Shown piece after piece: positions 29,529-54,466 of a DNA stretch of 64,000 nucleotides (the first letter of the stretch is position 1; every line of letters begins with the position of its first letter). Origin of the DNA: Phytoseiulus persimilis (lineage: Eukaryota; Arthropoda; Arachnida; Mesostigmata; Phytoseiidae); assembly GCA_037576195.1 (NCBI GenBank), contig CM075101.1, positions 46,686,001 to 46,750,000 on the forward strand. Reading direction: 5' to 3'. A program made the translations under genes and the position numbers. The notes beneath the pieces were generated by a model, which saw nothing but the letters and a program-made list of their open reading frames with translations, did not search any database and was not told where the DNA came from.

Positions 29529-29615
29529 TCCGTCGAACCGGATTTGAACCAGTGACCTAAGGATCGCTGTCCAAGTTTCTACAGTCCTCCGCTCTACCAA
29601 CTGAGCTATCGACGG
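29529..29615 (-). tRNA. tRNA-Tyr(GTA) with a 14-nt intron
   Basis: The gene is 87 nt including the intron, and the mature tRNA is 73 nt. The acceptor stem CCGTCGA pairs with TCGACGG and the discriminator is A. The anticodon arm reads GAGGA-CTGTAG, then a 14-nt intron (AAACTTGGACAGCG), then A-TCCTT. The intron therefore sits at the canonical 37/38 site, as in essentially all eukaryotic tRNA-Tyr genes. An intact A box (TAGCTCAGTTGG) and B box (GGTTCAAATCC) are present. A TTTT terminator follows about 4 nt after the 3' end on the minus strand. Confidence 0.95.
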
Positions 29616-29874: not shown

Positions 29875-29962
29875 TCCGTCGAACCGGATTTGAACCAGTG
29901 ACCTAAGGATCGCTGCCCGATTTCTCTACAGTCCTCCGCTCTACCAACTGAGCTATCGACGG
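29875..29962 (-). tRNA. tRNA-Tyr(GTA) with a 15-nt intron
   Basis: This has the same body as the copy at 29,529-29,615, about 260 bp away and in the same orientation. Its intron is different, 15 nt (AGAAATCGGGCAGCG), and again lies at 37/38. A TTTT run follows about 4 nt downstream on the minus strand. The intron is identical to that of the inverted copy near 39.8 kb, so these two are the closest relatives. Confidence 0.95.
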
Positions 29963-39774: not shown

Positions 39775-39862
39775 CCGTCGATAGCTCAGTTGGTAGAGCG
39801 GAGGACTGTAGAGAAATCGGGCAGCGATCCTTAGGTCACTGGTTCAAATCCGGTTCGACGGA
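39775..39862 (+). tRNA. tRNA-Tyr(GTA) with a 15-nt intron
   Basis: This plus-strand copy has body and intron identical to the minus-strand gene at 29,875-29,962. The acceptor CCGTCGA/TCGACGG is intact, as are the GTA anticodon and the 37/38 intron. TTTT follows at 39,867-39,870. Confidence 0.95.
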
Positions 39863-43000: not shown

Positions 43001-45137
43001 TGCCCAATGGGCTCTTTAATAACTGCTGTGAGTCTCGATTGAGGAGCGGCCAAGTCGACTCGGGGGGACTCAATGGAAAAATATCGTTGTCCGCTGCAGA
43101 GTCCAAGCCTCTTTCGACTGGAACAAGTCTGTTGTCGGACCGGAACGCCTGATGTACGACCTGGAGAGCAAGAAGGAGCTTCTACAATCCCTGACCTCCT
43201 TCCACTGTTGTGCGGGTAATAAGTTGCGCTCGGTGTGGTCCTTCCTGAATTCCTAATATTCCGAATTCCCAGACCCGATTCTGTCCTGCCGGAGCTGGAA
43301 AGTTTAGATAGCCCAATTAGAACTCAAACATTGGGGAATCGAAGGACTCTTCCGTGATTCACTAATCCTGTGCAGCCGAAAATGTTCACGGCAGCTGCTG
43401 ACCGTTGCGGAGCGTGCCTCGGAGTAGATATGAAATCGGAGACGGGTCATGGAAAGCAATAGAAGCCAACTTGGTTCCTATTGCTTTGTAGACAGCTCCG
43501 GATTCGTCGGACTCAGACAACTCTGAGTGGTTCGCGCCCCCTATATCCGGGCCAATTTTTAGGTCACAGCTCCACGTTTGACACGGATGGCTCCGGGAGG
43601 GTGCGACGGGTTCCAAGCTGTGATGTCGGTCTCTCGTCGCTGCCAAATCGTTCTCCCTTGCTTGTTTAGACGACACCTCAGCCTCTCTTGACCGAATCCG
43701 AAGGCGACTCAGTGCATGGCCTGCTATATCGTCTGCCAACCTCGAAGTTGTCTCCAAACGGGAGAGAGTTGCGAATGCGACGTCGACTCCACACTGGCTG
43801 TCCATCAATCGTAGCCCAACGGAGGAATGCTGCATGGAGCAATCATGTTTCCGACGCAGGAAACTCCGAACGCTCCGCTAGAAAGCTCACGAGTCGTCTC
43901 CGAAACCCAGTTTCTCCATGATCACAAGCTATCAGGGGTAGGGAGCGAGAAAGATTCGATCTCAAGCTGTGCGTTGGCTTGCGATGGATTTTCTCTGCGT
44001 TTCAAACAACAACAAACCTGCACTGACAAATCCTTACCAGGATATTGCATCAGTGCCGACTGATCCTCGGGGATGATTGTGTCCTGACCGTGTGTGTATT
44101 TGTGCAGGCAGGTTTCTCGCATCTGTTGCAGACAACTATCATATCATGAAGCTGCCTGAGGGACAGCTATCACTAAACTTCGCTCTGCTGTTATTTCTCC
44201 AATCGTGGGATGGTTGCGAGCGAGCTCCGAAGGGAATTGACCAGCCTTTCTTCTATGTAGCCATTAAGTAAGTGTCTTCGTGTCACGTTCACAGCTAATG
44301 GCTCCTTGGGCTCATCAGATTAACCGTTATTAAGCGTATCTATCATTACTTTTATCATATAAACGGATTGTCTGTGTGCGATTACCACAATATTGCTCGC
44401 TGTTCCACTAGAAGCCAAACCACTGCCACATCTCGATGGAAGCCGCCTCGTTCCAGAATATGGAATAGCGAGAAGCTGAGCGAAAGCTTCCTCACCAAAG
44501 GAACTGCTGACTGCTGGCACAGTGAAGTCAGCCCCTCGAAAAGTGTCAAGATCGCTGATCTCCCGCCGCCGACGCAAGTGAGGATCGGGAATCAAAGTCT
44601 ACTCTGTTCAACGAAATTCGAATCACATGAACCGCCTCTGTGAGGCGGCATCGCTTTCGAGAGAGCAATCTAGATAGACCAATTGGTCAGTAACAAGAGG
44701 AGAGACACCACTCAAGAATTCACGATAATTGAGACAATGGCTGCGACTCACGTTGGTCATTAACGCAACGTTCTCTTGGTGAAAGCCTTCTTACTGAGGA
44801 AAGTCGCACTCTCACAAAGACTCCCTTGAGATCGATGAATGGCAAGCAAATCTAGGAAAATGGTCCTTCGCGAGTGGAGTGACCATTATTACCAGGACAG
44901 CAACGGTGCGGAGAAGAGAGGGCGTCGTTGAGAGCCTTGCTCCCACTCGCCTCGGTTCAGAGTTGAATCACAGAGACCGACACCGATGCCAGTTGACAAT
45001 TATGGAATGAATCGATGGAATCGAGGAGATGCGTTGATGGATGCTCCCTATCCACACATTGAAAATCCGTCCGAAGACAGACAACGTCTCTCTAAAACGG
45101 GAATCTTGGCGTGAAATTGACAATCTCGCGGAAAATC
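40096..45137. other. non-coding stretch, nothing recognised
   Basis: Open frames of up to about 150 codons show no motif. The last about 30 bp before 45,138 resemble an eroded array spacer (TCTCGCGGAAAATCTGG against TTTCGCGGAAATGG). Confidence 0.45.
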
Positions 45138-45208
45138 TGGATGCTTGATATTGATCCCAGAACCTCTCGCATGCTGAGCGGACGCGCCTCCATCTAAGCT
45201 ACATCCCA
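45138..45208 (-). pseudogene. degenerate tRNA-Ala at the left edge of the array
   Basis: It matches the consensus over most of its length but lacks 2 bp in the 3' acceptor strand and carries several mismatches in the anticodon and D arms. The spacer after it is also diverged. It is probably non-functional. Confidence 0.75.
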
Positions 45209-45280
45209 TTCTTTGTCAGACGTCTTTTTCACGGTCCGTGAGATCCTTTCGGCGGGCCAGATGCGAAAAAATCGCAACAA

Positions 45281-45353
45281 TGGGGAAGCTGTGTATCGAT
45301 CCCAGTACCTCTCGCATGCTGAGCGAGCGCTCTACCATCTGAGCTACATCCCC
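45281..45353 (-). tRNA. tRNA-Ala(AGC), array copy 1
   Basis: Variant: C33 instead of U33 in the anticodon loop, a mismatch in the T stem, and an altered 3' acceptor strand. Likely weak or inactive. Confidence 0.65.
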
Positions 45354-45426
45354 TTCTGTAACAGACGTTTTTTCCATGGTTCGTGGTATCGTCCTGGCGG
45401 CCCGAATGCGAAAAATCTCGCGGAAA

Positions 45427-45499
45427 TGGAGATGCTGGGTATCGATCCCAGTACCTCTCGCATGCTAAGCGAGCGCTCTACCATCTGAGCTACATCCCC
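45427..45499 (-). tRNA. tRNA-Ala(AGC), array copy 2
   Basis: Consensus body. Confidence 0.9.
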
Positions 45500-45572
45500 T
45501 TGTGTAACAGACGTTTTTTTCACGGTTCGTGGCATCGTCCTGGCGGCCCGAATGCGAAAAATTTCGCGGAAA

Positions 45573-45645
45573 TGGAGATGCTGGGTATCCATCCCAGTAC
45601 CTCTCGCAAGCTGAGCGAGCGCTCTACCATCTGAGCTACATCCCC
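45573..45645 (-). tRNA. tRNA-Ala(AGC), array copy 3
   Basis: Variant: C33, A37-to-U38 region changed (TCAGCTT loop), and G56 in the T-loop, which breaks the B box and the G19-C56 contact. Probably inactive. Confidence 0.6.
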
Positions 45646-45718
45646 TTCTGAAACAGACGTTCTTTTCATTGTTCGTGATATCGTCCTGGCGGCCCGAATG
45701 CGAAAAATTTCGCGGAAA

Positions 45719-45791
45719 TGGAGATGCTGGGTATCGATCCCAGTACCTCTCGCATGCTAAGCGAGCGCTCTACCATCTGAGCTACATCCCC
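45719..45791 (-). tRNA. tRNA-Ala(AGC), array copy 4
   Basis: Consensus body. Confidence 0.9.
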
Positions 45792-45864
45792 TTCTGGAAC
45801 AGACGTTGTTTTCATGGCTCGCGGTATCGTCCTGGCGGCCCGAATGCGAAAATTTTTGCGGAAA

Positions 45865-45937
45865 TGGAGATGCTGGGTATCGATCCCAGTACCTCTCGCA
45901 TGCTAAGCGAGCGCTCTACCATCTGAGCTACATCCCC
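45865..45937 (-). tRNA. tRNA-Ala(AGC), array copy 5
   Basis: Consensus body; its 3' trailer hairpin is altered (GCAAAAATTTTC). Confidence 0.9.
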
Positions 45938-46010
45938 TTCTGTAACAGACGTTTTTTTCATGGTTCGTGGCATCGTCCTGGAGGCCCGAATGCGAAAAGT
46001 TTCGCGGAAA

Positions 46011-46083
46011 TGGAGATGCTGGGTATCGATCCCAGTACCTCTCGCATGCTAAGCGAGCGCTCTACCATCTGAGCTACATCCCC
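46011..46083 (-). tRNA. tRNA-Ala(AGC), array copy 6
   Basis: Consensus body; terminator T-run shortened to TTTT. Confidence 0.9.
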
Positions 46084-46156
46084 TTCTGTAACAGACGTTT
46101 TTTTCATTGTTCGTGGTATCGTCCTGGAGGCCCGAATGCGAAAAATTTCGCGGAAA

Positions 46157-46229
46157 TGGAGATGCTGGGTATCGATCCCAGTACCTCTCGCATGCTAAGC
46201 GAGCGCTCTACCATCTGAGCTACATCCCC
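46157..46229 (-). tRNA. tRNA-Ala(AGC), array copy 7
   Basis: Consensus body. Confidence 0.9.
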
Positions 46230-46302
46230 TTCTGTAACAGACGTTTTTTTCATTGTTCGTGGTATCGTCCTGGCGGCCCGAATGCGAAAAATTTCGCGGA
46301 AA

Positions 46303-46375
46303 TGGAGATGCTGGGTATCGATCCCAGTACCTCTCGCATGCTAAGCGAGCGCTCTACCATCTGAGCTACATCCCC
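46303..46375 (-). tRNA. tRNA-Ala(AGC), array copy 8
   Basis: Consensus body. Confidence 0.9.
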
Positions 46376-46448
46376 TTCTGAAACAGACGTTTTTTTCATG
46401 GTTCGTGGCATCGTCCTGGCGGCCCGAATGCGAAAAATTTCGCGGAAA

Positions 46449-46521
46449 TGGAGATGCTGGGTATCGATCCCAGTACCTCTCGCATGCTAAGCGAGCGCTC
46501 TACCATCTGAGCTACATCCCC
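46449..46521 (-). tRNA. tRNA-Ala(AGC), array copy 9
   Basis: Consensus body. Confidence 0.9.
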
Positions 46522-46594
46522 TTCTGGAACAGACGTTGTTTTCATGGTTCGTGGTATCGTCCTGGCGGCCCTAATGCGAAAATTTTCGCGGAAA

Positions 46595-46667
46595 TGGAGA
46601 TGCTGGGTATCGATCCCAGTACCTCTCGCATGCTAAGCGAGCGCTCTACCATCTGAGCTACACCCCC
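46595..46667 (-). tRNA. tRNA-Ala(AGC), array copy 10
   Basis: A5-to-G in the acceptor stem (GGGGGTG) leaves a G-U pair; likely still foldable. Confidence 0.85.
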
Positions 46668-46740
46668 TTCTGTAACAGACGTTTTTTTCATGGTTCGTGG
46701 CATCGTCCTGGAGGCCCGAATGCGAAAAGTTTCGCGGAAA

Positions 46741-46813
46741 TGGAGATGCTGGGTATCGATCCCAGTACCTCTCGCATGCTAAGCGAGCGCTGTACCATCT
46801 GAGCTACATCCCC
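46741..46813 (-). tRNA. tRNA-Ala(AGC), array copy 11
   Basis: G22-to-C gives a mismatch in the D stem (GCTC/CAGC). Confidence 0.8.
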
Positions 46814-46886
46814 TTCTGTAACAGACGTTTTTTTCATTGTTCGTGGTATCGTCCTGGAGGCCCGAATGCGAAAAATTTCGCGGAAA

Positions 46887-46959
46887 TGGAGACGCTGGGT
46901 ATCGATCCCAGTACCTCTCGCATGCTAAGCGAGCGCTCTACCATCTGAGCTACATCCCC
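46887..46959 (-). tRNA. tRNA-Ala(AGC), array copy 12
   Basis: A67-to-G in the 3' acceptor strand leaves a U-G pair. Confidence 0.87.
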
Positions 46960-47032
46960 TTCTGTAACAGACGTTTTTTTCATTGTTCGTGGTATCGTCC
47001 TGGCGGCCCGAATGCGAAAAATTTCGCGGAAA

Positions 47033-47105
47033 TGGAGATGCTGGGTATCGATCCCAGTACCTCTCGCATGCTAAGCGAGCGCTCTACCATCTGAGCTACA
47101 TCCCC
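47033..47105 (-). tRNA. tRNA-Ala(AGC), array copy 13
   Basis: Consensus body. Confidence 0.9.
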
Positions 47106-47178
47106 TTCTGTAACAGACGTTTTTTTCATTGTTCGTGGTATCGTACTGGCGGCCCGAATGCGAAAAATTTCGTGGAAA

Positions 47179-47251
47179 TGGAGATGCTGGGTATCGATCC
47201 CAGTACCTCTCGCATGCTAAGCGAGCGCTCTACCATCTGAGCTACATCCCC
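47179..47251 (-). tRNA. tRNA-Ala(AGC), array copy 14
   Basis: Consensus body; one substitution in the trailer hairpin. Confidence 0.9.
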
Positions 47252-47324
47252 TTCTGAAACAGACGTTTTTTTCATGGTTCGTGGCATCGTCCTGGCGGCC
47301 CGAATGCGGAAAATTTCGCGGAAA

Positions 47325-47397
47325 TGGAGATGCTGGGTATCGATCCCAGTACCTCTCGCATGCTAAGCGAGCGCTCTACCATCTGAGCTACATCCCC
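47325..47397 (-). tRNA. tRNA-Ala(AGC), array copy 15
   Basis: Consensus body. Confidence 0.9.
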
Positions 47398-47470
47398 TTC
47401 TGTAACAGACGTTTTTTTCATTGTTCGTGGTATCGTCCTGGCGGCCCGAATGCGGAAATTTTTGCGGAAA

Positions 47471-47543
47471 TGGAGATGCTGGGTATCGATCCCAGTACCT
47501 CTCGCATGCTAAGCGAGCGCTCTACCATCTGAGCTACATCCCC
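47471..47543 (-). tRNA. tRNA-Ala(AGC), array copy 16
   Basis: Consensus body; trailer altered as in copy 5. Confidence 0.9.
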
Positions 47544-47617
47544 TTCTGTAACAGACGTTTTTTTTCATGGTTCGTGGCATCGTCCTGGAGGCCCGAATGC
47601 GAAAAGTTTCGCGGAAC

Positions 47618-47690
47618 TGGAGATCCTGGGTATCGATCCCAGTACCTCTCGCATGCTAAGCGAGCGCTCTACCATCTGAGCTACATCCCC
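47618..47690 (-). tRNA. tRNA-Ala(AGC), array copy 17
   Basis: C66-to-G gives a G7-G66 mismatch at the base of the acceptor stem (shared with copies 20, 24 and 42). Confidence 0.8.
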
Positions 47691-47763
47691 TTCTGTAACA
47701 GACGTTTTTTTCATTGTTCGTGGTATCGTCCTGGCGGCCCGAATGCGAAAAATTTCGCGGAAA

Positions 47764-47836
47764 TGGAGATGCTGGGTATCCATCCCAGTACCTCTCGCAT
47801 GCTAAGCGAGCGCTCTACCATCTGAGCTACATCCCC
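47764..47836 (-). tRNA. tRNA-Ala(AGC), array copy 18
   Basis: C56-to-G in the T-loop weakens the B box. Confidence 0.75.
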
Positions 47837-47910
47837 TTCTGTAACAGACGTTTTTTTTCATGGTTCGTGGCATCGTCCTGGCGGCCCGAATGCGAAAAAT
47901 TTCGCGGAAA

Positions 47911-47983
47911 TGGAGATGCTGGGTATCGATCCCAGTACCTCTCGCATGCTAAGCGAGCGCTCTACCATCTGAGCTACATCCCC
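47911..47983 (-). tRNA. tRNA-Ala(AGC), array copy 19
   Basis: Consensus body. Confidence 0.9.
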
Positions 47984-48057
47984 TTCTGTAACAGACGTTT
48001 TTTTTCATGGTTCGTGGCATCGTCCTGGAGGCCCGAATGCGAAAAGTTTCGCGGAAC

Positions 48058-48130
48058 TGGAGATCCTGGGTATCGATCCCAGTACCTCTCGCATGCTAAG
48101 CGAGCGCTCTACCATCTGAGCTACATCCCC
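48058..48130 (-). tRNA. tRNA-Ala(AGC), array copy 20
   Basis: G7-G66 mismatch type. Confidence 0.8.
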
Positions 48131-48203
48131 TTGTGTAACAGTCGTTTTTTTCATGGTTCGTGGCATCGTCCTGGCGGCCCGAATGCGAAAAATTTCGCGG
48201 AAA

Positions 48204-48276
48204 TGGAGATGCTGGGTATCCATCCCAGTACCTCTCGCATGCTAAGCGAGCGCTCTACCATCTGAGCTACATCCCC
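48204..48276 (-). tRNA. tRNA-Ala(AGC), array copy 21
   Basis: G56 type. Confidence 0.75.
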
Positions 48277-48349
48277 TTCTGTAACAGACGTTTTTTTCAT
48301 TGTTCGTGGTATCGTCCTGGCGGCCCGAATGCGAAAAATTTCGCGGAAA

Positions 48350-48422
48350 TGGAGATGCTGGGTATCGATCCCAGTACCTCTCGCATGCTAAGCGAGCGCT
48401 CTACCATCTGAGCTACATCCCC
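48350..48422 (-). tRNA. tRNA-Ala(AGC), array copy 22
   Basis: Consensus body. Confidence 0.9.
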
Positions 48423-48495
48423 TTCTGTAACAGACGTTTTTTTCATTGTTCGTGGTATCGTCCTGGCGGCCCGAATGCGAAAAATTTCGCGGAAA

Positions 48496-48568
48496 TGGAG
48501 ATGCTGGGTATCGATCCCAGTACCTCTCGCATGCTAAGCGAGCGCTCTACCATCTGAGCTACATCCCC
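48496..48568 (-). tRNA. tRNA-Ala(AGC), array copy 23
   Basis: Consensus body. Confidence 0.9.
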
Positions 48569-48642
48569 TTCTGTAACAGACGTTTTTTTTCATGGTTCGT
48601 GGCATCGTCCTGGAGGCCCGAATGCGAAAAGTTTCGCGGAAC

Positions 48643-48715
48643 TGGAGATCCTGGGTATCGATCCCAGTACCTCTCGCATGCTAAGCGAGCGCTCTACCAT
48701 CTGAGCTACATCCCC
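48643..48715 (-). tRNA. tRNA-Ala(AGC), array copy 24
   Basis: G7-G66 mismatch type. Confidence 0.8.
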
Positions 48716-48788
48716 TTGTGTAACAGTCGTTTTTTTCATGGTTCGTGGTATCGTCCTGGCGGCCCGAATGCGAAAAATTTCGCGGAAA

Positions 48789-48861
48789 TGGAGATGCTGG
48801 GTATCGATCCCAGTACCTCTCGCATGCTAAGCGAGCGCTCTACCATCTGAGCTACATCCCC
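48789..48861 (-). tRNA. tRNA-Ala(AGC), array copy 25
   Basis: Consensus body. Confidence 0.9.
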
Positions 48862-48935
48862 TTCTGTAACAGACGTTTTTTTTCATGGTTCGTGGCATCG
48901 TCCTGGCGGCCCGAATGCGAAAAATTTCGCGGAAA

Positions 48936-49008
48936 TGGAGATGCTGGGTATCGATCCCAGTACCTCTCGCATGCTAAGCGAGCGCTCTACCATCTGAGCT
49001 ACATCCCC
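48936..49008 (-). tRNA. tRNA-Ala(AGC), array copy 26
   Basis: Consensus body. Confidence 0.9.
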
Positions 49009-49081
49009 TTCTGTAACAGACGTTTTTTTCATTGTTCGTGGTATCGTCCTGGCGGCCCGAATGCGAAAAATTTCGCGGAAA

Positions 49082-49154
49082 TGGAGATGCTGGGTATCGA
49101 TCCCAGTACCTCTCGCATGCTAAGCGAGCGCTCTACCATCTGAGCTACATCCCC
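49082..49154 (-). tRNA. tRNA-Ala(AGC), array copy 27
   Basis: Consensus body. Confidence 0.9.
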
Positions 49155-49227
49155 TTGTGTAACAGTCGTTTTTTTCATGGTTCGTGGCATCGTCCTGGCG
49201 GCCCGAATGCGAAAAATTTCGCGGAAA

Positions 49228-49300
49228 TGGAGATGCTGGGTATCGATCCCAGTACCTCTCGCATGCTAAGCGAGCGCTCTACCATCTGAGCTACATCCCC
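49228..49300 (-). tRNA. tRNA-Ala(AGC), array copy 28
   Basis: Consensus body. Confidence 0.9.
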
Positions 49301-49373
49301 TTCTGTAACAGACGTTTTTTTCATTGTTCGTGGTATCGTCCTGGCGGCCCGAATGCGAAAAATTTCGCGGAAA

Positions 49374-49446
49374 TGGAGATGCTGGGTATCGATCCCAGTA
49401 CCTCTCGCATGCTAAGCGAGCGCTCTACCATCTGAGCTACATCCCC
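49374..49446 (-). tRNA. tRNA-Ala(AGC), array copy 29
   Basis: Consensus body. Confidence 0.9.
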
Positions 49447-49520
49447 TTCTGTAACAGACGTTTTTTTTCATGGTTCGTGGCATCGTCCTGGCGGCCCGAA
49501 TGCGAAAAATTTCGCGGAAA

Positions 49521-49593
49521 TGGAGATGCTGGGTATCGATCCCAGTACCTCTCGCATGCTAAGCGAGCGCTCTACCATCTGAGCTACATCCCC
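49521..49593 (-). tRNA. tRNA-Ala(AGC), array copy 30
   Basis: Consensus body. Confidence 0.9.
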
Positions 49594-49666
49594 TTCTGTA
49601 ACAGACGTTTTTTTCATTGTTCGTGGTATCGTCCTGGCGGCCCGAATGCGAAAAATTTCGCGGAAA

Positions 49667-49739
49667 TGGAGATGCTGGGTATCGATCCCAGTACCTCTCG
49701 CATGCTAAGCGAGCGCTCTACCATCTGAGCTACATCCCC
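49667..49739 (-). tRNA. tRNA-Ala(AGC), array copy 31
   Basis: Consensus body. Confidence 0.9.
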
Positions 49740-49812
49740 TTGTGTAACAGTCGTTTTTTTCATGGTTCGTGGCATCGTCCTGGCGGCCCGAATGCGAAAA
49801 ATTTCGCGGAAA

Positions 49813-49885
49813 TGGAGATGCTGGGTATCGATCCCAGTACCTCTCGCATGCTAAGCGAGCGCTCTACCATCTGAGCTACATCCCC
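49813..49885 (-). tRNA. tRNA-Ala(AGC), array copy 32
   Basis: Consensus body. Confidence 0.9.
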
Positions 49886-49958
49886 TTGTGTAACAGTCGT
49901 TTTTTTCATGGTTCGTGGTATCGTCCTGGCGGCCCGAATGCGAAAAATTTCGCGGAAA

Positions 49959-50031
49959 TGGAGATGCTGGGTATCGATCCCAGTACCTCTCGCATGCTAA
50001 GCGAGCGCTCTACCATCTGAGCTACATCCCC
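49959..50031 (-). tRNA. tRNA-Ala(AGC), array copy 33
   Basis: Consensus body. Confidence 0.9.
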
Positions 50032-50104
50032 TTCTGTAACAGACGTTTTTTTCATTGTTCGTGGTATCGTCCTGGCGGCCCGAATGCGAAAAATTTCGCG
50101 GAAA

Positions 50105-50177
50105 TGGAGATGCTGGGTATCGATCCCAGTACCTCTCGCATGCTAAGCGAGCGCTCTACCATCTGAGCTACATCCCC
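50105..50177 (-). tRNA. tRNA-Ala(AGC), array copy 34
   Basis: Consensus body. Confidence 0.9.
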
Positions 50178-50251
50178 TTCTGTAACAGACGTTTTTTTTC
50201 ATGGTTCGTGGCATCGTCCTGGCGGCCCGAATGCGAAAAATTTCGCGGAAA

Positions 50252-50324
50252 TGGAGATGCTGGGTATCGATCCCAGTACCTCTCGCATGCTAAGCGAGCG
50301 CTCTACCATCTGAGCTACATCCCC
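50252..50324 (-). tRNA. tRNA-Ala(AGC), array copy 35
   Basis: Consensus body. Confidence 0.9.
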
Positions 50325-50397
50325 TTCTGTAACAGACGTTTTTTTCATTGTTCGTGGTATCGTCCTGGCGGCCCGAATGCGAAAAATTTCGCGGAAA

Positions 50398-50470
50398 TGG
50401 AGATGCTGGGTATCCATCCCAGTACCTCTCGCATGCTAAGCGAGCGCTCTACCATCTGAGCTACATCCCC
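50398..50470 (-). tRNA. tRNA-Ala(AGC), array copy 36
   Basis: G56 type. Confidence 0.75.
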
Positions 50471-50544
50471 TTCTGTAACAGACGTTTTTTTTCATGGTTC
50501 GTGGCATCGTCCTGGCGGCCCGAATGCGAAAAATTTCGCGGAAA

Positions 50545-50617
50545 TGGAGATGCTGGGTATCGATCCCAGTACCTCTCGCATGCTGAGCGAGCGCTCTACC
50601 ATCTGAGCTACATCCCC
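50545..50617 (-). tRNA. tRNA-Ala(AGC), array copy 37
   Basis: C33 instead of U33 in the anticodon loop. Confidence 0.75.
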
Positions 50618-50690
50618 TTCTGTAACAGACGTTTTTTTCATTGTTCGTGGTATCGTCCTGGCGGCCCGAATGCGAAAAATTTCGCGGAAA

Positions 50691-50763
50691 TGGAGATGCT
50701 GGGTATCGATCCCAGTACCTCTCGCATGCTAAGCGAGCGCTCTACCATCTGAGCTACATCCCC
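50691..50763 (-). tRNA. tRNA-Ala(AGC), array copy 38
   Basis: Consensus body. Confidence 0.9.
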
Positions 50764-50836
50764 TTGTGTAACAGTCGTTTTTTTCATGGTTCGTGGCATC
50801 GTCCTGGCGGCCCGAATGCGAAAAATTTCGCGGAAA

Positions 50837-50909
50837 TGGAGATGCTGGGTATCCATCCCAGTACCTCTCGCATGCTAAGCGAGCGCTCTACCATCTGAGC
50901 TACATCCCC
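50837..50909 (-). tRNA. tRNA-Ala(AGC), array copy 39
   Basis: G56 type. Confidence 0.75.
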
Positions 50910-50982
50910 TTCTGTAACAGACGTTTTTTTCATTGTTCGTGGTATCGTCCTGGCGGCCCGAATGCGAAAAATTTCGCGGAAA

Positions 50983-51055
50983 TGGAGATGCTGGGTATCG
51001 ATCCCAGTACCTCTCGCATGCTAAGCGAGCGCTCTACCATCTGAGCTACATCCCC
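50983..51055 (-). tRNA. tRNA-Ala(AGC), array copy 40
   Basis: Consensus body. Confidence 0.9.
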
Positions 51056-51128
51056 TTCTGTAACAGACGTTTTTTTCATTGTTCGTGGTATCGTCCTGGC
51101 GGCCCGAATGCGAAAAATTTCGCGGAAA

Positions 51129-51201
51129 TGGAGATGCTGGGTATCGATCCCAGTACCTCTCGCATGCTAAGCGAGCGCTCTACCATCTGAGCTACATCCC
51201 C
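51129..51201 (-). tRNA. tRNA-Ala(AGC), array copy 41
   Basis: Consensus body. Confidence 0.9.
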
Positions 51202-51275
51202 TTCTGTAACAGACGTTTTTTTTCATGGTTCGTGGCATCGTCCTGGAGGCCCGAATGCGAAAAGTTTCGCGGAAC

Positions 51276-51348
51276 TGGAGATCCTGGGTATCGATCCCAG
51301 TACCTCTCGCATGCTAAGCGAGCGCTCTACCATCTGAGCTACATCCCC
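51276..51348 (-). tRNA. tRNA-Ala(AGC), array copy 42
   Basis: G7-G66 mismatch type. Confidence 0.8.
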
Positions 51349-51421
51349 TTGTGTAACAGTCGTTTTTTTCATGGTTCGTGGCATCGTCCTGGCGGCCCGA
51401 ATGCGAAAAATTTCGCGGAAA

Positions 51422-51494
51422 TGGAGATGCTGGGTATCCATCCCAGTACCTCTCGCATGCAGAGCGAGCGCTCTGCCATCTGAGCTACATCCCC
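51422..51494 (-). tRNA. tRNA-Ala with TGC anticodon, array copy 43
   Basis: The anticodon loop reads TCTGCAT, giving anticodon TGC, still alanine. It also has C33, G56 and a D-loop A-to-G change. The altered U33 and B box make function doubtful. Confidence 0.65.
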
Positions 51495-51567
51495 TTCTGA
51501 AACAGACGTTTTTTTCATTGTTCGTGGTATCGTCCTGGCGGCCCGAATGCGAAAAATTTCGCGGAAA

Positions 51568-51640
51568 TGGAGATGCTGGGTATCGATCCCAGTACCTCTC
51601 GCATGCTAAGCGAGCGCTCTACCATCTGAGCTACATCCCC
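51568..51640 (-). tRNA. tRNA-Ala(AGC), array copy 44
   Basis: Consensus body. Confidence 0.9.
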
Positions 51641-51713
51641 TTCTGTAACAGACGTTTTTTTCATGGTTCGTGGTATCGTCCTGGCGGCCCGAATGCGAAA
51701 AATTTAGCACAAA

Positions 51714-51786
51714 TGGAGATGCCGGCAATCAGTCCCAGTACCTCTCGCATGCTAAGCGAGCGCTCTACCATCTGAGCTACATCCCC
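51714..51786 (-). tRNA. tRNA-Ala(AGC), array copy 45 (diverged)
   Basis: The 5' two thirds is consensus. The T arm is changed (CTGGG...GCCGG with a mismatch, loop ACTGATT), so the B box is lost. It is probably a pseudogene. Confidence 0.55.
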
Positions 51787-51863
51787 TACTATTGCAGAAA
51801 GGGCTCTCGAGGTTCCTGCACTCCTACTTCCGGCACTCCCAACGCGGAAAGATTCGTAGAGAA

Positions 51864-51934
51864 TGGAGATGCTGGGCATCGATCCCAGTACCTTCTGCAT
51901 TCTTCGTGAGCGCTGTACCGTTCGCACTCGTCCT
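51864..51934 (-). pseudogene. degenerate tRNA-Ala at the right edge of the array
   Basis: Only the T arm and the 3' acceptor strand match the consensus. The anticodon stem no longer pairs and the 5' acceptor half is unrecognisable. The spacer between it and copy 45 is also unlike the array spacers. Confidence 0.75.
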
Positions 51935-51984
51935 CTTTTGCTCGAAGACGACTGGTATTGAGGGACGGAGCTTTCATGGTCTGT

Positions 51985-54466
51985 CTTGAGGTGATTCCAG
52001 GACCAATCTGACTATTACTTCCCGAGTCTGGAGGGGTGATTCCGGGACCAACCTGACCATGCTATTCAAAACCTGGAGAGGTGATTCCGGGACCAATCTA
52101 ACCTATGCTTCCCAAGTCTGGGGGTGATTCCGGGACCAATCTGACCATTACTCCCCAACTCTGAAGGTGTGATTCCGGGACCAATCTGACCATTGCTTTC
52201 CAAGTCTGGGGGGTGATTCCGGGACCAATCTAACCTCTGCTTCCCAAGTCTGGGGGTGATTCCGGGATCAATCTTACCATTACTCCCCAACTCTGAAGGG
52301 GTGATTCCGGGACCAACCTGACCATACTTTTCAACACCGGGAGGGGTGATTCCGGGACCAATCTGGCCATTGCTTTCCAAGTCTGGGGGGTGATTCCGGG
52401 ACCAATCTGACCATCGCTTTCCAACTCTGGAGGGGTGATTCCGAGACCAACCTGACCATACTTTCAAAACCGGGAGGGGTGATCTCGGGACCAATCTGAC
52501 CATTGCTTTCCAAGTCTGGGGGTGATTCTGGGACCAATCTGACTATTACTTCCCAAGTCTGGAGGGGTGATTCCGGGACCAATCTGACCATTGCTTTCGA
52601 AGTCTGGGGGGTGATTCCAGGACCAATCTGATCATTACTTCCCAAGTCTGGAGGGGTGATTCCGGGACCAATCTGACCATTGCTTTCCAAGTCTGGGGGG
52701 TGATTCCAGGCCCAATCTGATCATTACTTTCCAACTCTGGATGGCTGATTCCGGGACAAACCTGACCACACTTTTCAAAACCTGGAGGGGTGATTCAGGG
52801 ACCAATCTGACCATTGCTTTCCAAGTCTGGGGGGTGATTCCAGGCCCAATCTGACCATTACTCCGCAACTCTGAAGGGGTGATTCCGGGACCAACCTGAC
52901 CATACTTTTCAAAACCGGGAGGGGTGATTCCGGGACCAATCTGACCATTGCTTCCCAAGTCTGGGGGGTGATTCCGGGACCAATCTAACCTTTGCTTCCC
53001 AAGTCTGGGGGTGATTCCGGGACCAATCTGACCATTACTCCGCAACTCTGAAGGGGTGATTCCGGGACCAACCTGACCATACTTTTCAAAACCGGGAGGG
53101 GTGATTCCGGGACCAATCTGACCATTGCTTTCCAAGTCTGGGGGGTGATTCCGGGACCAATCTAACCTTTGCTTCCCAAGTCTGGGGGTGATTCCGGGAC
53201 CAATCTGATTATTACTTCCCAAGTCTGGAGGGGTGATTCCGGGACCAATCTGACCATTGCTTTCCAAGTCTGGGGGGTGATTCCAGGCCCAATCTGATCA
53301 TTACTTTCCAACTCTGGATGGCTGATTCCGGGACAAACCTGACCACACTTTTCAAAACCTGGAGGGGTGATTCAGGGACCAATCTGACCATTGCTTTCCA
53401 AGTCTGGGGGGTGATTCCAGGCCCAATCTGATCATTACTTTCCAACTCTGGATGGCTGATTCCGGGACCAACCTGACCACACTTTTCAAAACCTGGAGGG
53501 GTGATTCCGGTACCAATCTGACCATTGCTTTCCAAGTCTGGGGGGTGACTCCGGGACCAATCTGATCATCACTTGTCAACTCTGGAGGGGTGATTCCGGG
53601 ACAAATCTAACCATTACTTCCCAACTCTGAAGGGGTGATTCTGGGACCAACCTGACCATACTTTTCAAAAACGGGAGGGACGATTCCGGGACCAATCTGA
53701 CCATTGCTTTCCAACTCTTGAGGGCTGATTCCGGGACCAACCCGACCATACTTTTCAAAACCTGGAGGGGTGATTCTGGGACCAATCTGACCATTGCTTT
53801 CCAAGTCTGGGGGGTGATTCCGGGACCAATCTGACCATCACTTGTCAACTCTGGAGGGGTGATTCCTGGACAAATCTAACCATTCCTTTCCAACTCTGGG
53901 GGGTGATTCCGGGACCAATCTGACCATCACTTATCAACTCTGGAGGGGTGATTCCGGGACAAATCTAACCATTACTTTCCAACTCTGGAGGGGTGATTCC
54001 GGGACCAACCTGACCATACTTTTCAAAACCTGGAGGGGTGATTCGGAGACCAATCTGACCATTGCTTTCCGAGTCTGGGAGGTGATTCCGGAACCAATCT
54101 GACCATTGCTTCCCAAGTTTGGGGGGTGATTCTGGGACCAATCTGACTATTACTCCCCAAGCCTGGAAGGGTGATTCCGGGACCAATCTGACCATTGCTC
54201 CCCAAGTCTGGAGGCGTGATTCTGAGACCAATCCAACCATCACTTTCCAACTCTGGGGGGGTTATTCCGGGACCAATCTGACTATTACTTCCCAACTCTG
54301 GAGGGGTGATTAGGGACCAATCTGACTAATACTTTCCAACTCTGGAGGGGTGATTCCGGGACCAACCTGACCATACTTTTCGAAACCTGGAGGGGTGATT
54401 CCGCGACCAATCTGACCATTACTTTCCAACTCTGGAGGGGTGATTCCGAGACCATTGCTTTCCAAG
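51985..54466. repeat. minisatellite, unit about 43-44 bp, roughly 57 copies
   Basis: Units follow the plan GTGATTCCGGGACCAATCTG, then ACCATTGCTTTCCAAG, then TCTGGGG. Several subtypes differ in the second half: TTGCTTTCCAAG, TTACTCCCCAAC, TACTTTTCAAAACC and TTACTTCCCAAG. Subtypes recur in order. For example, a block starting near 52,690 returns near 53,270 and again near 53,405, and a block near 52,913 returns near 53,090, so higher-order duplication has occurred. The unit is not a multiple of three, so the minus-strand open frames (up to 210 codons, motif ESNGQIGPGITPPDL) drift through frames and are not evidence of a protein. It begins about 50 bp after the tRNA array ends. Confidence 0.93.

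Follow-up and report, generated by a model that had tools for sequence, protein, structure and literature searches.

Organization of the array

We analyzed a 64,000-nucleotide stretch of the genome of the mite Phytoseiulus persimilis (assembly GCA_037576195.1, contig CM075101.1, positions 46,686,001 to 46,750,000 of the forward strand; here called the window, in whose coordinates all positions below are given unless a contig is named). The window contains a tandem array of tRNA-Ala genes on the minus strand, with 47 tRNA bodies between positions 45136 and 51936 when the decayed copies at its edges are included. An earlier note, made from the letters of this DNA, had described a 6.8-kb head-to-tail tRNA-Ala array, and TRF, ARAGORN, Infernal, and an ungapped scan now agree on it. 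TRF reported a repeat at 45140-51787 (period, 146; 45.5 copies; 96% matches) and detected no repeat of shorter period inside the array. Infernal called 45 tRNAs over the Rfam gathering score (45281-51786), all on the minus strand, in keeping with the 45 genes on one strand and the 146-bp period of the note. ARAGORN identified 42 minus-strand Ala tRNAs (41 with the anticodon AGC and one with TGC), and the ungapped scan, with the array body as the query, yielded the 47 bodies, spaced 145 to 150 bp apart. Each unit carries one tRNA and is mostly 146 or 147 bp long (34 and 9, respectively, of the 43 inner units). The array thus consists of many head-to-tail copies of a single isoacceptor (apart from the one TGC unit), less than 1 kb from one another. 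Identical bodies account for 29 of the 47, the number that the note had estimated.

The outermost copies are decayed, with 15 of 73 positions changed in the low-coordinate copy (45136-45208, minus strand) and 20 of 73 in the high-coordinate one (51864-51936, minus strand). Such a structure could also arise if an assembler had multiplied a few units, and the copy number given here derives from a single assembly. However, 27 distinct unit sequences were counted among the 47, private variants are present, the edges are decayed, and the window contains no N; a simple assembly duplication is therefore unlikely, and we regard an artefact of this kind as highly improbable.

Structure of a unit

The body is a 73-nt tRNA with the consensus anticodon AGC, and the representative consensus body (49082-49154, minus strand) takes a cloverleaf fold according to ARAGORN, Infernal, and folding. 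From general tRNA numbering, we take its A box to lie at about 49136-49147 and its B box at about 49093-49103. The alanine identity pair G3:U70 is unchanged in all 43 inner units, as are G15, A48, A54, A58, and A60. The last five positions match the set reported for eukaryotic AGC-tRNA-Ala (R15/A48, A54/A58, and a purine at 60), which is described from insects and mammals and not from fungi or nematodes (PMC7566577). The copies can thus give rise to a tRNA in which the identity and tertiary positions are conserved, although 12 of the 43 inner units are predicted to be impaired elsewhere.

Downstream of the body, on the tRNA strand, come TTT at +1 and, in 34 of the 47 units, T5 at +12; 9 units instead have T4 at one of the positions +12 and +13, and 4 have other forms. 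In the representative unit, TTT lies at 49079-49081 and the likely RNA polymerase III (Pol III) terminator, T5 at +12 to +16, at 49066-49070 (minus strand). Within the 40 nt that follow the body, the longest T-run is T5 in 34 units, T4 in 10, T3 in 2, and T6 in 1; a run of at least three T residues is thus present in 47 of 47 units and a run of at least four in 45. Since T4 is found downstream of the four other tRNAs in the window, T4 or T5 appears to be the usual terminator here. The intact T-run terminator claimed earlier is likely to be this T5, while the conspicuous T7/T8 on the plus strand sits upstream of each tRNA (as an A-run on the tRNA strand) and is not a terminator. With internal A and B boxes and a T-run of its own, each intact unit would be expected to act as an independent Pol III gene.

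Two further features were seen in the units. The terminator lies inside a short palindrome, GCGAAATTTTTCGC (tRNA strand; e.g., 49063-49076), which is a potential small hairpin and is altered in some units. A 188-codon open frame (47699-48265, plus strand) runs antisense across several units and probably arises mechanically from the repetition.

Bodies predicted to be impaired

The note had described the A and B boxes and the stems as intact, a statement that does not extend to the array as a whole: 12 of the 43 inner bodies carry changes that are predicted to be damaging (i.e., C56G in six, C66G in four, T33C alone in one, and G22C in one). C66G breaks the acceptor pair 7-66 (e.g., 51276-51348, minus strand; other copies start at 47618, 48058, and 48643). 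C56G, the commonest body variant, falls within the T-loop and the B box (e.g., 50837-50909, minus strand; other inner copies start at 45573, 47764, 48204, 50398, and 51422), and two of the six units with it carry further changes. The unit starting at 51422 (51422-51494, minus strand) is the one with the TGC anticodon; ARAGORN and the ungapped scan reveal T20C, T33C, and C56G in it, and it is probably a pseudogene. The other 31 inner bodies look intact and comprise the 29 identical ones and two with single changes that leave G-U pairs (A5G and A67G, one unit each). A5G is also present in one scattered Ala-AGC gene (L041 2043-2115), the array unit in question being 46595-46667.

C56 is critical for TFIIIC binding, as known from work in yeast. 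C56G therefore bears on the suggestion that the array serves as a Pol III/TFIIIC chromatin domain or boundary, with occupied B boxes, and not the tRNAs, being what counts. The A and B boxes are dense and repeated, and there is a precedent in the human 1q23.3 tRNA tandem repeat, for which a boundary role via CTCF has been proposed (PMC4041453). Nevertheless, the variant that has become most frequent (6 of 43 inner units) is one within the B box, and no feature of the sequence points to a boundary; we regard such a domain as very unlikely here.

A private base pair and a spacer found only in the array

The assembly amounts to 181 Mb in 127 contigs (28 to 55 Mb for the four largest seen). An Ala-AGC anticodon-arm pattern had 48 exact matches in it, 41 in the array and 7 on contigs C1, C2, and C4. 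G50-C64 is the pair in each of the seven scattered Ala-AGC genes found, while all 43 inner array units carry T50-A64, a two-sided change that preserves the T-stem pair. T50 and A64 are also retained in both decayed end copies; the base-pair change and the array itself thus appear to predate the decay of these copies. The G50-C64 combination of the scattered genes occurs in none of the 47 array units (A64G is found in one end unit), so exchange seems to be internal to the array. One of the seven scattered Ala genes shares the strand of the array and lies at a distance of about 94 kb.

The 73-bp spacer (represented by 49155-49227, minus strand) was not found elsewhere in the 181-Mb assembly with a one-unit DNA query in a search that skips very common words; outside the array, this query matches the scattered genes by the tRNA part alone. 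The clustered genes thus encode an isodecoder distinct from that of the dispersed genes, and the one-base-pair difference makes the two tRNAs distinguishable by sequencing.

The genome contains at least six further Ala genes with TGC or CGC anticodons. For scale, nine genes have the score of a Gly-GCC gene and are presumably all Gly-GCC. No other tandem row of tRNA genes was seen with two A-box patterns (the first with 76 matches, 43 in the array and 33 elsewhere; the second, of the Val type, with 11), which cover some of the isotypes, and the tRNA family search scored 63 of 6164 candidates, so that others are possible.

Diversity within the array and the 5S yardstick

Diversity was computed for the 43 inner units, the four end units of the 47 being dropped. 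Nucleotide diversity (pi) was 0.0114 in the bodies and 0.047 in the spacers (body/spacer ratio, about 0.24), with 9 of 73 sites segregating in the body and 20 of 73 in the spacer (Fisher p, 0.037). A permutation of columns gave p = 0.004; both tests take linked sites as independent and hence amount to moderate evidence. When a 73-bp frame was slid through all 146 rotations of the unit, the tRNA frame had the lowest diversity, a minimum shared solely by the frames offset from it by 1 and 2 nt.

The same genome offers a yardstick in three tandem 5S rRNA arrays, at C4:9744737-9753153 (period, about 286 bp), C1:9947256-9949903 (about 281 bp), and C1:10035887-10038371 (about 344 bp), from a search in which 47 of 10783 candidates were scored. 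The C4 array, with 30 copies, is the largest among those seen. Over its 28 inner units (first and last dropped), pi was 0.0006 in the body (1 of 119 sites) and 0.035 in the spacer (30 of 167), i.e., a body/spacer ratio of 0.017. Both arrays consist of tandem Pol III genes, and the spacers of the tRNA array diverge like those of the 5S array, whereas its genes are far less protected. The near-invariant body of a 5S or rDNA array is not seen in the tRNA array, and the ratio of about 0.24 against 0.017 indicates that constraint on it is weak.

These values bear on the principal rival explanation, a mostly neutral, satellite-like expansion in which a 146-bp repeat that spreads by unequal exchange had captured a tRNA gene, with most copies silent or of no consequence for the tRNA pool. 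Such an expansion would suit the frequency with which predicted damage has spread among the bodies (12 of 43 inner units), a constraint far below that of 5S, and the position of the array beside a dispersed 45-bp minisatellite (described below). Alanine tRNAs are in any case encoded elsewhere, by the seven scattered Ala-AGC genes and by six or more genes with TGC or CGC anticodons. A neutral repeat should vary equally along its unit, however, and here the bodies are four times less variable than the spacers, with the minimum at the tRNA frame to within 2 nt. The T50-A64 change keeps its pair, and the T-runs are maintained. The body/spacer contrast thus speaks against the pure satellite that the note had offered as an option, and we consider a mostly neutral expansion possible but rather unlikely. 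A genuine gene cluster under weak to moderate constraint would fit these data better, short of proof of its use.

How the array changes

Spacers fall into two classes, X and Y, which alternate along the array, with 25 unlike and 8 like neighbors. As many unlike neighbors arose in 64 of 20,000 shuffles and as few like neighbors in 94 of 20,000. The alternating spacer types are as expected under unequal exchange. Together with the private T50-A64, the spacer seen only here, and the conserved body, they bear out the description of the locus in the note as an rDNA-like, homogenized array of a single isoacceptor.

Longer multi-unit block duplications were considered as well. With up to one difference allowed per unit, matching units form runs of four at most, a length that was reached or exceeded in 200 of 1000 shuffles, and the longest exact-match run is also four (146 of 5000 shuffles). 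Block amplification is therefore weakly supported, and the alternation of two types better so. Among 16 shared variants, one, a two-unit case, was regionally clustered (p, 0.045), and the others did not fall below 0.05.

Neighborhood

The 45-bp minisatellite (51990-54454) begins about 50 bp beyond the end of the array and lies outside it. It was detected by TRF, and a genome search shows it to be dispersed, its relatives giving at least 225 matches on contigs C1 to C4 and the small contig C109. The window also holds one Val tRNA and three Tyr-type tRNA genes of 87 to 88 nt with an apparent intron (29529-29615 and 29875-29962, minus strand; 39775-39862, plus strand). Infernal called all three Tyr-type genes and ARAGORN only the first; the second and third are identical, on opposite strands, and about 10 kb apart. 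No Pfam match was obtained for the 10 open reading frames scanned of the 27 listed in the window (at least 150 amino acids). COX1 had no match in the whole assembly, from which the mitochondrial genome may therefore be absent. An arginine-kinase frame is similar to single-domain arginine kinases in the PDB. For two predatory mites, a haploid set of three chromosomes is given (PMC6902594), as against the four large scaffolds seen here.

Discussion

We interpret the locus as a real, redundant, and concertedly evolving tRNA-Ala gene cluster that is probably partly active, and on the basis of sequence we assign this reading a probability of roughly 0.6. The founder would have been one genuine tRNA-Ala(AGC) gene, amplified in tandem along with the roughly 73 bp of spacer belonging to it. 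This copy would already have carried T50-A64, where the scattered genes have G50-C64. Unequal exchange, partly in two-unit steps, may then have multiplied the copies and kept them similar, each intact unit being a separate predicted Pol III gene. An AGC isodecoder is expected to read the codons GCU, GCC, and GCA following A-to-I editing at position 34. The cluster would add an alanine isodecoder to the scattered genes, of which there are at least seven. Purifying selection on it would be weak to moderate, leaving room for roughly one defective unit in four.

Several points weigh against this interpretation. Of the inner bodies, 12 of 43 are predicted to be damaged, with C56G spread to six units and C66G to four, and constraint is weak beside that of the 5S array. 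The evidence for constraint comes from tests that treat linked sites as independent, and positions common to all units may reflect descent alone. The array body is predicted to be slightly less stable than the scattered-gene body in the same cloverleaf (-29.6 versus -31.1 kcal/mol). In favor of the interpretation, intact array bodies have an Infernal score of 61.0 bits, compared with 60.3 in six scattered genes and 57.7 in the remaining one. An alanine-rich product or an alanine demand was not identified; a search with Spidroin_N gave no match, but its control was silent too, and it is hence uninformative on silk.

The array was not found described in the literature searched, and we make no claim that it is unpublished. 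Arrays of this kind are known. The closest animal precedent is the silk-gland-specific tRNA-Ala gene cluster of Bombyx mori (Underwood et al. 1988, as cited in PMC12308677), whose tandem tRNA-Ala genes are likewise described as a set of their own; silk-gland-specific use is a property reported for the silkworm cluster. In Arabidopsis, a well-studied analogue is the SYY (Ser-Tyr-Tyr) cluster, which the root cap expresses and most tissues keep silent (PMC12308677). As in the mite, its major clustered isodecoder differs from the dispersed genes. In both, this form is enriched in the core, with more variable flanks, and pseudogenes occur among the copies: 13 of 54 clustered Tyr genes give tRNA-like RNAs in Arabidopsis, comparable to the 12 of 43 inner units that look impaired here. 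The SYY unit differs in having three genes for two amino acids and in its demonstrated root-cap expression. Tandem plant arrays of one isoacceptor have fewer copies (27 tRNA-Pro genes in Arabidopsis and 28 tRNA-Ile genes in maize); clusters of identical genes reach 26 and looser clusters 110 genes (PMC12652284). The tandem noncoding RNA arrays of Hydractinia contain evenly spaced, near-identical animal tRNA genes, but for all 20 isotypes and with spacers of hundreds to thousands of nucleotides (PMC11067881), as opposed to the one tRNA array seen here, with its spacer of 73 nt. Clusters of fifty and more tRNA genes are reported from Nematostella and teleosts (PMC2888827). In Entamoeba, an array unit may hold as many as five tRNA genes, separated by complex short tandem repeats (PMC2652664), an arrangement unlike the single tRNA per unit and the lack of a shorter-period TRF repeat in the mite. 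The size and type of the array are therefore less unusual than the note had stated, although the observation of the array itself is confirmed.

High alanine demand, one of the meanings suggested in the note, has a close precedent in the silkworm. The array could be a dedicated, developmentally restricted locus that evolved independently of the silkworm cluster. Its U50-A64 tRNA-Ala would form a pool apart, made in a single tissue that is secretory or produces cuticle, and the weaker T-stem pair would adapt the tRNA to this role. We offer this proposal tentatively and consider it doubtful.

Among arrays of a known kind, the private base pair is what makes this one testable. Since a single base pair would set its product apart from that of the seven scattered genes found, tRNA sequencing can show whether, when, and where the cluster is used, and the 5S arrays of the same genome provide an internal yardstick for the constraint on a Pol III array. 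The array therefore bears on the question of what maintains large, redundant clusters of tRNA genes in genomes.

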